Origin: Gemmatimonadota bacterium
Lineage (GTDB): Bacteria; Gemmatimonadota; Gemmatimonadetes; Longimicrobiales; Gaopeijiaceae
Direction of reading: 5' to 3'
Assembly (NCBI GenBank): GCA_007121455.1
Contig: SKKN01000013.1
Coordinates: 1 to 64,000 of the forward strand
DNA: 64,000 bases
Shown: positions 38,827-43,857 of the stretch, piece after piece
How positions within the stretch are numbered: the stretch's first letter is position 1
Layout of the letters: every line of letters begins with the position of its first letter
Translations under genes and position numbers: made by a program
The notes under the pieces: model-generated
Seen by the model: only the letters and a program-made list of their open reading frames with translations
Database searches by the model: none
Told to the model about the DNA's origin: nothing

Positions 38827-39801
38827 ATGCGCTTTGACACGAGGAGCCTCCTGATGCGCCTCCGCTCCCGCCCCGGCACCACGGGGCTGCTCGGCCTCGC
38901 CGCGTTCCTTCTGGTCGCTGGGGTTCACTTCTCGCCCGCCGGGGCCTCCGAGTGGACCGACCGGGCGGTCGCCGCCCCTCAGGCCGCCACCCTCTCGGAG
39001 CTGCCCCTCTGGACGGTCACCGACGGTGATCGCATTCTCTACCTCCTCGGCTCCGTGCACATGCTCCGGCCCGAGGTCTTCCCGCTGGACGAGGCGCTCA
39101 CCGAGGCCTTCCACGATGCCGAAGTGGTCGCCTTCGAGCTCGACCTCGACGTCCTTCAGGCCGGCGCCATGGCCATGCTTCAGAGGGGCACCTTCCAGGA
39201 CGAGCGCACCCTGCGCGGGAAGCTCGACGAGGCAACGTACGAGGAGCTGTCGAACCGGTTCGAGTCCTTCGGCGTCCCCACCCAATTGGTGGAGAACCTG
39301 AAGCCGTGGATGGCGTCCTTGATGCTCTCGTCCCTCGTCATCCAGCAGGCCGGCTATGAAGCGGAGTCGGGCATCGACCTGTACTTCTTCCAGAAGGCGC
39401 GAGCCGAGGGGAAGGAAATCGTCGCGCTCGAATCCCTCGAGGAGCAGATCGAGATCTTCGACGGACTCTCCATCGAGGCCCAGGCCGTGTTCCTGGAGTC
39501 GACCCTCGAGGGCATGGACGGTGCGGTCGAGGACATGGACCGGATGAGCGCGCTGTGGGAGCGTGGAGACGCCGACGAGTTGGCGGAGGTCCTGACGGAG
39601 TCCCTCTCGGGGCACCCGGAACTCGCCGAGCGCATCCTCCACGAGCGGAATCGCAACTGGGTCCCGCAGATCGAGGAGCTTCTGGAAGCCCCCCGTACCG
39701 CGATCGTGATCGTCGGGATGGGCCACATGGTCGGAGAAGGCAGCGTCGTGGAGCTGCTCCGCGACCGCGGCTACGCGGTGGAGCGCTGGGGCGGGAGCTG
39801 A
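38827..39801 (+). CDS. TraB/GumN-family protein
   Basis: A 324-residue protein with a hydrophobic signal segment (about 18-42) that predicts export. The GumN/TraB/PrgY fold is visible by the GxxH motif LGSVHMLRPEVFPLD (near 75), the ERNRNW motif, and GMGHMVGEG near the end. The family resembles metalloproteases such as Tiki and binds or cleaves peptides; bacterial roles are mostly unproven. Members with the two histidine motifs probably bind metal. The start 38827 lies 9 bases after the dienelactone hydrolase stop, and the gene's end overlaps the end of the convergent hydrolase by 31 bases. Confidence 0.88.
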   Translation: MRFDTRSLLMRLRSRPGTTGLLGLAAFLLVAGVHFSPAGASEWTDRAVAAPQAATLSELPLWTVTDGDRILYLLGSVHMLRPEVFPLDEALTEAFHDAEVVAFELDLDVLQAGAMAMLQRGTFQDERTLRGKLDEATYEELSNRFESFGVPTQLVENLKPWMASLMLSSLVIQQAGYEAESGIDLYFFQKARAEGKEIVALESLEEQIEIFDGLSIEAQAVFLESTLEGMDGAVEDMDRMSALWERGDADELAEVLTESLSGHPELAERILHERNRNWVPQIEELLEAPRTAIVIVGMGHMVGEGSVVELLRDRGYAVERWGGS

Positions 39802-40682
39802 CGGTCGACCCCCAGGTGCCGGAGGAGGAACTCGATCTGTGCCCCGATGACGGATTCGAACACATCCCCCTGGTAGACCTCGAAGTGGCCGATCGGATAC
39901 GAGAGGTGCTCACCGCGAGGGGCCCTTCCCGCCATCCGCCGTGCCGGCCCCGGTGGAGTCAGGACGTCCCGCTCGCCGACCTGCACGAGGAGGGGGCACC
40001 GGACCCTGGAGGCGTATCGGATGGGTCGGTACACGAGGGTCGCCGGCCCGATCCGAGCGCATACCCGGTTCTCCCAGGGCAGCCCCTCGTGTAGGGTCCG
40101 GAAGCCCTCCACCGCGTCATCGAGTGCCATGATCGCGGCCGTGCCGGGCCGTCCCACGAGCTTCACCTCCACCGGCGCGCCCCCGATCCCGCTCCGGACC
40201 CGGTCGGCGACGGCCGCCGCGATCAGCTTGAGGGAGGAGAGGAGGGGGATGCTCCAGGCGCTGCTCCACCCGCTCGTGAACGGGACCTGTGAGACCACCG
40301 CGGCGACATCGCCATCCTCCGCCGCCACCCGAACGACGTGACCACCCGAAAAGGAGGTTCCCCAGAGCGCCACGCGGGACACGTCCACGTCCGGAAGCCG
40401 GCGGAGGAAGGCGAGCGCCGCGTGCAAGTCTTCGATCTGGCGGCGCACGGAGACGAGCTGTCGGGGCTCTCCCCCGCTCTCCCCGAAGTGCCGGTAATCG
40501 AAGCGGAGTGCAAGGAACCCGGCCTCCGCGAATCGCTCCGCGTACGCCGGCAGGGCCGCAGCGCGGAGCGCCCCGAACCCCGGTGCGAGCACCACCGCCG
40601 GGTACGGCGGCGGTCCCGGGGGGCGGACCAGATCACCGACGAGCTCGGCTCCTCCGGACGGGACACGGACAGCGGTGTTCAT
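39771..40682 (-). CDS. Alpha/beta hydrolase of a sensor operon
   Basis: A 303-residue alpha/beta hydrolase. The oxyanion region is VLAPGFGALR, the nucleophile is in GTSFSGG, and the late aspartate and histidine are VGERDVLTPP and IGHFEVYQGDVFE. It resembles esterases that act on small or bulky substrates in xenobiotic breakdown. ATG 40682 overlaps the stop of the hybrid histidine kinase gene (ATGA), so the hydrolase is the third gene of the operon binding protein-kinase-hydrolase. That arrangement suggests its level follows the kinase's ligand, or that it processes the ligand, which is inference. Confidence 0.86.
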   Translation of the reverse strand: MNTAVRVPSGGAELVGDLVRPPGPPPYPAVVLAPGFGALRAAALPAYAERFAEAGFLALRFDYRHFGESGGEPRQLVSVRRQIEDLHAALAFLRRLPDVDVSRVALWGTSFSGGHVVRVAAEDGDVAAVVSQVPFTSGWSSAWSIPLLSSLKLIAAAVADRVRSGIGGAPVEVKLVGRPGTAAIMALDDAVEGFRTLHEGLPWENRVCARIGPATLVYRPIRYASRVRCPLLVQVGERDVLTPPGPARRMAGRAPRGEHLSYPIGHFEVYQGDVFESVIGAQIEFLLRHLGVDRQLPPQRSTA

Positions 40683-42727
40683 TCGCCTCTTCCGTTCGCA
40701 GACGACCCCATCAGCTCCGAGACACGGGCGAGGTAGTCGGCGATGTCGAAGGGCTTGTGGATGAAGAGCTCGGGCCGCCGCTCCGCGAGGGCCACCAGCT
40801 CCGGATCGCTCACGTCTCCGGTGACGAAGAGGAATGATTCGGCGAGCTCCGGCCGGCTCTCGACGACCCAGCGGTAGAGAGCCATCCCGCTCTCCCCCGG
40901 CATCTTCACGTCCGAGAGGACGATGTCGACCTCCTTTTCCGCCAGGACCACCCGGGCCTCATCCACGTTCGTCGCCGTCCACACCTCCGCGTTCAGCCGA
41001 TCGAGGAGGCGCTCCTGGAGGTCGCGGAGCGGAGCCTCGTCCTCGACGACCAGGATTCGCGGACCCAGCGAGCCACCCGGGCCCGCTTCATCGAGTGCTG
41101 TCATGCCCTCCCCGGGCGGGTCTGCCGCCTCCGCCTTCTCCACCTCCGGCCCCTCGGGCTCGACCCTCGGAGCCGAGACCGGGAGGGTGAGCATGAACCT
41201 CGCGCCCCCCTCGGGGCGGTTCTCCGCGCGCACCGTCCCGCCGAAGAGAGATACCAGGCGATGAACCACCGTGAGACCGAGTCCGGTCCCTTCGCCGACG
41301 CTCTTCGTCGTGAAGAACGGATCGAAGACCCGGTCGGGCCGGTCCAGCCCCGGGCCATCGTCCTCGAAGAGGAGGCGGACGCTTCGGCCCGCCTTCTCCC
41401 CCCGGATCGTGAGCGCACCCTTTCCCGCTGGACTCAGCGCATCGAAAGCATTGTTCACGAGGTTGAGCACCACGCTCTGGAGCATCTCCGGATCGGCTCG
41501 AACGGACACGTCCGGGACCTCCTCCACCCGAAGCTCGAGGCCCGCCTGCTGGAAGGAGTATCCCCGGAGCGTGGTGGCCACCTCGAGAGGGTCTCGCAGG
41601 GGCACCGGCGCGAGCGTCGCCTCGGACTTCCGCGAAAAGCGGAGGAAGTTCCGGATGAGGTGCTGTGCGCGCACGGCTTCATCGAGGAGCAGATCGATGA
41701 AGGGCTTCAACTCGTGGGCGTCCACGGTCGGCCTTCCGTCGAGGTGGTCGGCCATGAGTTGGCCGTATCCCAGCACGCTCGCCAGCGGGTTGTTGAGCTC
41801 GTGTGCGAGCCCGGCGGTCATCCTGCCCACCGCGCTCAGCTTTTCCGACTGGACGAGTTCCGCCTGGGCGTCGTGAAGCGTGGCGAGCGTCTCCGTGAGC
41901 TCGCGGTTCCGATCCTCCAGTTCGGAGGTGGTCCGCCTGAGGCTCTCGGCCATCCGGTTGAACCCGGCCGTGACGATCCTGGATTCGAGGTCGGCGCCGG
42001 GAGGCAGGCGTACGTCGAGGTCGCCGCCCGCAATCCTTTCACTTGCGAGCGCCAGCTCCTGAAACGGCCGCCCGACGCGGCGGTTCAAAACCCAGACGAG
42101 CAGGAGCGTACCCAGCACGAAGAGGAGGGCGACCACCGCCATGCCGGCCAGAAGGGCCTGGACCGTGGCGCCCTGCCGGTCCCGAAGGGTGTCCAGATCG
42201 TTCTCCCTCATCTGGAGGAAGGTTTCCATCTTGTCCAGGAGCCGGAAGGCATGGAGTGCAACCGCGTCGCGGGATGCTTCTGCCTCCGCAAGAAGGCCCC
42301 GCTCGATGAGATCCGTGGTCCGCGCCCCGGCCACCTCCAGTCTCTGGTGCTCTTCGGCCATCTCCTCGAGCTGAAGCCGCTGCGCGGGGGAGAGGTCGAG
42401 GAAGAGGTATCTTCGGATCTGTCCGTACACCTCGTCGCTGGATTCCCTGAGCTCCGAGCGGGTGCGACCCACGTCTCCCGTAGGCAGGAGAGACGTGCTG
42501 GCGATCTGCCGGAGCACGGCCCGCTGAATCCGGTCCGCAACCCGCTGCTCCTCCACGAAGGTATCCGTAGCCGCCGCGAGGTCGTTGCGATCCCCGAGGC
42601 TCAAGATGAAGAGAATGCCCCCTCCGACGAGGACCAGGAAGGCGACCGCCCAGCCCACGGACAGCACCTTCGTCTGCAGGGACGTAGGCGCACCGCGTCC
42701 AACCCGCGAGCCCGGACCCGTGCTCAC
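40679..42727 (-). CDS. Hybrid histidine kinase with periplasmic helical sensor and receiver
   Basis: A 682-residue membrane kinase. Two transmembrane helices (about 21-43 and 191-213) bracket a four-helix-bundle-like sensor of about 145 residues. A HAMP domain (about 214-265) follows, then HisKA with His309 in GLAHELNNPLASVLGYG. The ATPase domain has N box NLVNNAFDA, G1 DDGPGLD and G2 GEGTGLGLTVVH. A C-terminal receiver has the phospho-acceptor D606 in VLSDVKMP and K658 in HKPFD. The GTG start at 42727 overlaps the binding-protein stop (GTGA). It is likely the sensor for the adjacent substrate-binding lipoprotein. No output-domain regulator is visible. Confidence 0.93.
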   Translation of the reverse strand: MSTGPGSRVGRGAPTSLQTKVLSVGWAVAFLVLVGGGILFILSLGDRNDLAAATDTFVEEQRVADRIQRAVLRQIASTSLLPTGDVGRTRSELRESSDEVYGQIRRYLFLDLSPAQRLQLEEMAEEHQRLEVAGARTTDLIERGLLAEAEASRDAVALHAFRLLDKMETFLQMRENDLDTLRDRQGATVQALLAGMAVVALLFVLGTLLLVWVLNRRVGRPFQELALASERIAGGDLDVRLPPGADLESRIVTAGFNRMAESLRRTTSELEDRNRELTETLATLHDAQAELVQSEKLSAVGRMTAGLAHELNNPLASVLGYGQLMADHLDGRPTVDAHELKPFIDLLLDEAVRAQHLIRNFLRFSRKSEATLAPVPLRDPLEVATTLRGYSFQQAGLELRVEEVPDVSVRADPEMLQSVVLNLVNNAFDALSPAGKGALTIRGEKAGRSVRLLFEDDGPGLDRPDRVFDPFFTTKSVGEGTGLGLTVVHRLVSLFGGTVRAENRPEGGARFMLTLPVSAPRVEPEGPEVEKAEAADPPGEGMTALDEAGPGGSLGPRILVVEDEAPLRDLQERLLDRLNAEVWTATNVDEARVVLAEKEVDIVLSDVKMPGESGMALYRWVVESRPELAESFLFVTGDVSDPELVALAERRPELFIHKPFDIADYLARVSELMGSSANGRGE

Positions 42728-43857
42728 GTGCCCTCTTCCGGTCCGATTGCGAGCATCACGTACTCCCGCTCCGCGTCCCCGGCTTCGGAGAAGACCAGGG
42801 GTCCGGTGATTCCGGGGAAGGGGTCGCGGCCGCGTCCGAGACTCATGAGGTACTCGCGAACCGCTTCTCCGGAATCGGCGCCCTCGCGGACGGTCGCGAG
42901 AAGCAAGCGCACCGCATCGTAGGTCAGCGCCTCCGCACCTCCGGCCGGGACGCCGTGAATCGCGCGGAAGCGCTCGCTGAAGCTGCGGAGCTCCTCCGTG
43001 GCGTCCATGTCGACGAAGTCGAGGTACCGCACGCCCTCCCACCAGGAGCCGCGTCCCGAGACGAACCAGACCCTCGAGATCGCGTCGCCCCCGAACACCG
43101 GCACGTCCCCCTTCGCCTCCCGCAGGACGGGAAGCAGGAGGTTCAGTGCGGGGGTCCGGGCAAGCCAGAGGACCACGTCCACCTCTGCCGCACCGAGCGC
43201 CTCCACGATGTGGCCTACATCGACCTCCTCCACCTCCCCCTCCGCGTGCGGGAGATCGACGACGACCGGGAAGGCCTCGGTATCGAGCTCTTTCAGCACC
43301 GCGGCCCTGAGCGCGCGTCCGTAGTCGTCGTTCACGTAGAGGACCGCGGTCCGCGATCCGGGAGGAAGAGCCTCCTCCAGGTTCCTCACGAGGGATCGGG
43401 CCTGGACGTCGTCCGGCGGCACCATGCGGAAGCTGAAAGCACCCGCGTCCGAATAGATCGGGGCGGTGGAGGTCGGCGCGATCTGCACGACCCCCCGGCG
43501 GTTGTAGAACTGGGAGGCGGCGAGGCTCGCCGTACTGTTCGAGTGCCCGACGACCGCCAGAAGCCCGGGGACCTCGACCAGGTCGCGAGCGATCTCGAGG
43601 GCGGGCCCGGATCGATTCGACACCTCCTCCACCAGAATCGTGTCGAAGCCGGAGATCGGGCCCAGCTCGAGCTCATCGGCGACTGCGATCCGGGCCGCGT
43701 CGAGGAATGTGCCCGTGGCCGCGACGGCGAGGACCTTCGAGTTCGCCTCGCCGCAGGCCGGGAGACCGAGGAGGGAAGTGAAGATCAGCACCTGGATCCC
43801 CCGGCGCTTCAGGGTGGCGAGACGGCTCATGGGCCGGCCCCGATCCGTGGGCCGCAT
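42724..43857 (-). CDS. Solute-binding lipoprotein, LIV-binding (type I) family, without transporter
   Basis: A 377-residue periplasmic binding protein of the branched-chain amino acid type. A lipoprotein signal precedes the LLGLPAC lipobox, so it is anchored to a membrane. The fold shows VVGHSNSTASLAAS (ligand phosphate/ribose-like loop), FSFRMVPPDDVQAR and VLYVNDDYGRALRAAVL, all typical of the LivJ/Leu-binding group. No permease or ATPase gene is nearby. Instead it is translationally coupled to a hybrid histidine kinase (GTGA). The most likely job is to present an extracellular ligand to that kinase. ATG 43857 has AGGTGA five bases upstream; ATG 43830 is an alternative. Confidence 0.9.
   Translation of the reverse strand: MRPTDRGRPMSRLATLKRRGIQVLIFTSLLGLPACGEANSKVLAVAATGTFLDAARIAVADELELGPISGFDTILVEEVSNRSGPALEIARDLVEVPGLLAVVGHSNSTASLAASQFYNRRGVVQIAPTSTAPIYSDAGAFSFRMVPPDDVQARSLVRNLEEALPPGSRTAVLYVNDDYGRALRAAVLKELDTEAFPVVVDLPHAEGEVEEVDVGHIVEALGAAEVDVVLWLARTPALNLLLPVLREAKGDVPVFGGDAISRVWFVSGRGSWWEGVRYLDFVDMDATEELRSFSERFRAIHGVPAGGAEALTYDAVRLLLATVREGADSGEAVREYLMSLGRGRDPFPGITGPLVFSEAGDAEREYVMLAIGPEEGT

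Follow-up and report, generated by a model that had tools for sequence, protein, structure and literature searches.

The 64,000-nucleotide window (the whole stretch of DNA that was analysed) carries, one after another on its minus strand, genes for a binding lipoprotein, a hybrid histidine kinase and an alpha/beta hydrolase. This locus raised the question of which of the three products belong together in ligand sensing. According to the ORF calls, consecutive genes overlapped by 4 bp at both joins, as the first-pass annotation of the sequence had described, and the positions are collected in Table 1. Such overlaps are by themselves common in operons. The upstream neighbour of the three genes was a DUF3891 gene, and the downstream neighbour was a convergent gene of the TraB/PrgY/gumN family (window 38827-39801, plus strand), which shared 31 bp with the 3' end of the hydrolase gene. 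Reading of the neighbouring genes revealed no ABC transporter permease or ATPase gene directly beside the trio. A promoter and terminator scan of the region gave no signal above chance.

Table 1. Features of the three-gene locus, in window coordinates.
Feature	Position	Strand	Basis or remark
Binding lipoprotein, Peripla_BP_6 (Leu/Ile/Val-binding type)	42724..43857	-	Pfam, signal peptide, lipobox
GTGA overlap	42724-42727	-	lipoprotein stop and kinase start
Hybrid sensor histidine kinase, 682 aa, GTG start	40679..42727	-	TM-4HB-TM-HAMP-HisKA-HATPase_c-REC
Extracytoplasmic four-helix-bundle sensor, residues ~44-190	42158..42598	-	model; common to MCPs of the phylum
HAMP domain, residues 214-264	41936..42088	-	Pfam
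HisKA dimerisation/phosphoacceptor domain, residues 301-368	41624..41827	-	Pfam
HATPase_c catalytic domain, residues 412-517	41177..41494	-	Pfam
C-terminal receiver domain (Response_reg), residues 558-669	40721..41056	-	Pfam
ATGA overlap	40679-40682	-	kinase/hydrolase join
Alpha/beta hydrolase, 303 aa	39771..40682	-	GTSFSGG nucleophile motif, C-terminal GHF motif; Pfam

The identities assigned at first pass to the three products, namely a Leu-binding-type lipoprotein without an adjoining permease or ATPase, a membrane hybrid kinase with a helical external sensor and an alpha/beta hydrolase, all agreed with the Pfam results, the structural models and the neighbouring genes. The lipoprotein ORF encoded 377 aa, and the internal start at 43830, which gave a better signal peptide, is the likely start. 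The lipobox was LPAC, and at least 90% of the 29 relatives in the alignment kept its cysteine (codon 43753-43755). The Peripla_BP_6 match (5e-20, 72.8 bits against a gathering score of 31.7) covered most of the fold, at residues 51-362, and the fold was confirmed by the model (pLDDT 92), whose nearest folds were amino-acid-binding proteins with an amino acid bound. Residues S99 and D249 were invariant in the 29 relatives and aligned with ligand-contact positions of LivK and Atu2422, the Atu2422 alignment being made in this study. We take S99 to correspond to Ser79 and D249 to Glu/Asp226, presumably amino-acid contacts of LivK and Atu2422. On the alignments and the model, our best guess is that the ligand would be an amino acid or an amino-acid-like compound. 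It was also observed that the kinase-linked binding proteins were shorter by about 6-12 residues behind the first strand (columns 107-118 of alignment A5), where the MCP- and transporter-linked ones had a full loop. The loop probably lies at the edge of the ligand site, and its shortening may alter specificity. A plasmid search returned distant relatives only, and the annotated ones were named transport proteins.

The kinase carried HisKA, HATPase_c and receiver domains in one chain and is a hybrid histidine kinase. Its sensor was modelled, with a mean pLDDT of 91, as a long four-helix bundle running into both membrane helices and the HAMP domain. No Pfam family was found for this ectodomain; 4HB_MCP_1 (PF12729, gathering score 27 bits) gave no match in the sensor of the window and 16.4 bits in one relative, and a PDB sequence search with the sensor gave no match even at E 5. 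The ectodomain is therefore a helical bundle without a recognised direct-binding domain, as is expected of binding-protein-activated kinases. The 50 listed structural matches included NarQ fragments, MCP2201, PcaY and the LytS domain of the XylFII-LytS complex, which had the best target-normalised TM score among them (0.86, 1.7 Å, 120 columns, E 0.04); helix bundles are generic, so this match is suggestive only.

To establish which genes are kept together, we examined the relatives of the lipoprotein. Behind every one of its closest relatives in the same order (36-53% identity) lay a kinase gene that encoded a related sensor. The binding-protein alignment was then searched over 395 genomes of the phylum, where 19 matches scored above 290 bits and the next score, after a gap, was 214 bits. 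A sensor kinase lay directly downstream in 16 of these 19 close genes; in two (G258 and G261) a second binding-protein copy stood between gene and kinase, and the remaining one (G265) stopped at a contig edge. In a named genome collection, the pair was present in 12/12 loci at 35% identity or more, nearly all labelled Gemmatimonadota; the two sets partly overlap, several named records being the same contigs as numbered genomes. Among 50 binding-protein/sensor pairs from other genomes that were read base by base, an exact 4-bp overlap was possible in 40, a recurrence that exceeds chance. The binding-protein and kinase genes are thus adjacent and conserved together, and when the genes around 19 kinase-type loci were clustered, no third gene was kept beside the pair in more than two genomes.

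Several variant arrangements were noted among these loci. Two tandem binding-protein genes preceded one kinase at L118:6773-9116 (G258) and L124:6465-8704 (G261), so that one kinase may read two ligands. Tandem pairs in the order SBP1-HK1-SBP2-HK2 occurred at L116, L117 and L119 (G274, G199 and G377), where SBP2 was a more distant relative and HK2 had a different sensor, with a weak dCache match in L116. On a contig labelled Acidobacteria (L108:211-2951) the order was reversed, the kinase preceding the binding protein. A further pair was found on a 3-kb contig labelled Thermomicrobiaceae (L103), which is possibly a binning error because its sequences group within Gemmatimonadota.

A binding protein of this family might serve transport. 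The lipoprotein could be an orphan that feeds a permease encoded elsewhere, with the kinase merely regulating uptake; the family is mostly transport-linked, and relatives at 23-29% identity adjoin Liv-type permease and ATPase genes. The first-pass annotation had held that regular neighbours of this kind would speak against a sensing role; close relatives had no conserved adjoining transporter gene. The genome of the window (95.6% complete) contained no PF02653 (BPD_transp_2, LivH/LivM) permease, the partner that a substrate-binding protein of a Liv-type ABC transporter would have in its genome. None was found either in six other pair-bearing genomes (G127, G128, G013, G007, G368 and G261), and the same family matched in 12 of 14 control genomes. 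The absence of PF02653 indicated that the binding protein is kept without a Liv-type transporter in these lineages. A genome search found no MCPs in the genome of the window, G127, G128 or G007, so some pair-bearing lineages keep it without chemotaxis receptors as well; the incompleteness of assemblies is a reservation on these absences. With no LivH/M-type permease in seven pair-bearing genomes, the lipoprotein probably works solely as a receptor subunit, and we consider the orphan transport protein very unlikely.

The sensor was found to occur on a second type of output protein. On the lower side of the gap in score, many binding proteins of 84-197 bits were followed by a two-TM HAMP-MCPsignal receptor, the ectodomain of which could be aligned with the kinase sensors. 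A sensor-only profile built without HAMP (A3) matched in 174/395 genomes, and 168 of these 174 also contained the binding protein (Fisher p ~2e-67, with kinship among genomes ignored). A listed binding protein lay directly upstream, on the same strand, of at least 78 of the best 103 sensor matches; this count is a lower bound, as few candidates per genome were scored. The distances among binding proteins and those among sensors correlated with r = 0.92 over 48 pairs, and no permutation was as high; within classes, the correlation was 0.92 for the 18 kinase pairs and 0.88 for the 30 MCP pairs. Any two jointly inherited genes would be expected to co-diverge. In the sensor tree, a single branch, fully supported by SH-aLRT, split the HK from the MCP sensors, and in the binding-protein tree the kinase-linked proteins formed one group, which also enclosed two unlinked proteins. 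The trees and the co-divergence fit a module that was inherited as a whole and whose output domain was switched once. Four sensor-MCPs were without an adjacent binding protein (L125 in G009, L126 in G030, L127 in G001 and L129 in G004); binding-protein genes occur at unlinked positions in G001, G004 and G009, which may reflect a separation of the pair.

These observations also bear on how the ligand is sensed. Four-helix bundles match many folds, some of which bind ligands directly, and a ligand of its own is thus conceivable for the sensor. The kinase would then sense directly through its bundle, as do the structural neighbours MCP2201, PcaY and NarQ, and the lipoprotein would have a separate role. 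We regard this as unlikely, given the near-constant pairing of the sensor with a binding protein across kinases and chemoreceptors. Adjacency alone can mislead on such partnerships: neighbouring genes encode AgtS/AgtB, AgtS/PA0602 and AruS/PA4985, and no interaction of the products was seen (PMC11113362). AgtB, however, belongs to a transporter operon (PMC11113362), whereas the lipoprotein of the window does not, and among the 11 binding-protein/kinase couples that have been characterised, 10 are encoded side by side (PMC11113362). A functional link between lipoprotein and kinase is very likely because of the conserved adjacency, the joint inheritance and the presence of one sensor on two output types. 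By analogy, direct docking would be the natural mechanism, with three structural precedents, LytS, TorS and LuxQ (PMC6321045).

We therefore consider it probable that the lipoprotein and the hybrid kinase form a split sensor in which the lipoprotein docks on the four-helix bundle, with the hydrolase outside the mechanism. In this scheme, for which we infer the docking, the class of ligand and the direction of signalling, the membrane-anchored lipoprotein would bind a small ligand between its two lobes and dock on the kinase ectodomain. The bundle would change as the lobes open or close, and HAMP would relay the change to the kinase, which would phosphorylate its own receiver domain and then a downstream partner. 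The part of the first-pass annotation that had the binding protein signal to the kinase is well supported by the conserved coupled pair, the lack of a Liv-type permease and the likeness of the bundle to the domain on which XylFII docks.

The same annotation had made the hydrolase a possible member of the ligand-sensing unit, and this part was not borne out. In that account, the three genes would form a circuit in which the hydrolase makes or destroys the ligand as output or feedback. The ATGA overlap with the kinase gene would suit such a circuit, as would a distant match to UilS, an acyl-homoserine lactonase, which was the best NCBIfam match of the hydrolase (NF047920). That match reached 154 bits against a cut-off of 400, and relatives of the hydrolase scored 124-152 bits. 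The enzyme is thus not a member of the UilS family, and its assignment as a UilS-type AHL lactonase was rejected. UilS itself is cytoplasmic (PMC11633161). The hydrolase was likewise of cytoplasmic type with no evident signal peptide, and is therefore unlikely to act on a periplasmic ligand.

The genomic contexts of the hydrolase pointed the same way. In 146 genomes of the same order we found 13 relatives at E <1e-50 and one at 1e-28 (34-63% identity), and in none of the 13 contexts read among these 14 closest did the partner kinase or binding protein lie beside the hydrolase gene; at L084 there was an unrelated kinase on the opposite strand. In G127, the nearest genome with both the pair and the hydrolase, the hydrolase gene lay on a separate contig and was not preceded by any kinase sequence. 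One relative overlapped a cation P-type ATPase gene by 4 bp (G085, L087:4868-8547), and another was preceded by a flavin oxidoreductase-like gene (G055, L090). The kinase-hydrolase join was seen in no relative, so that the ATGA coupling occurred at the locus of the window only. Co-occurrence of all three genes across Gemmatimonadota had been set beforehand as a test, and the trio was not conserved. These contexts and the neighbour clustering led us to reject the trio as a unit, and the three-gene circuit appears highly improbable. As far as can be told, the hydrolase is a local neighbour outside the conserved unit, co-transcribed at most.

Taken together, we lean towards a two-gene sensing module found throughout Gemmatimonadota, the output of which would have been switched between MCP and hybrid kinase and the lipoprotein of which would persist solely as a receptor subunit in lineages without any Liv permease. 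The module would combine one type of binding lipoprotein with one undescribed four-helix-bundle docking domain, inherited together. Most sensor kinases and chemoreceptors have no assigned signal, partly since some depend on a binding protein encoded apart from them. In the present case, gene order points to the likely partner in much of a phylum with few cultured members, and both ligand and docking become directly testable. The presence of one sensor on kinases and chemoreceptors amounts to a domain exchange made by nature, with which the docking surface could be mapped. In the several genomes without the permease, sensing is set apart from transport, a usual confounder of such experiments.

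Among known proteins, LivJ/LivK and Atu2422 resemble the lipoprotein in fold, family and aligned ligand-contact positions. They serve ABC transporters, whereas the genome of the window has no such permease and the kinase-linked group has the shortened first-strand loop. The UilS family differs from the hydrolase, which fell below its cut-off, and the hydrolase is not linked to a binding-protein/kinase system elsewhere. As a whole, the pair most resembles XylFII-LytS, TorT-TorS and the archaeal BasB-BasT. XylFII-LytS of Clostridium (PDB 5XSJ) likewise combines a binding protein with a kinase that has a four-helix-bundle ectodomain. XylFII binds D-xylose and is a member of another binding-protein family than the lipoprotein, and LytS has no receiver domain, in contrast to the hybrid kinase. 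XylFII docks on helices H3 and H4 of LytS (PMC9769921). The PDB search found no sequence similarity between the sensor of the window and LytS. TorS, which senses TMAO, has a helical sensor and an HPt domain, and the 50 listed structural matches did not include its sensor. TorT-TorS of E. coli (PDB 3O1H) is similar in pairing a periplasmic binding protein with a hybrid kinase (PMC6321045). BasB-BasT and CosB-CosT of Halobacterium resemble the MCP variant of the phylum, in that a binding protein works for a methyl-accepting transducer; the amino acids to which BasT responds are Leu/Ile/Val/Met/Cys, and transducers and binding proteins copurify (PMC3579733). These systems are archaeal and have a chemotaxis output only, whereas the copy in the window has a hybrid kinase as its output, and its genome contained no MCPs. 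The kind of sensing proposed here is already known, and the phylum-wide module, its exchangeable output and its unnamed sensor domain look new.
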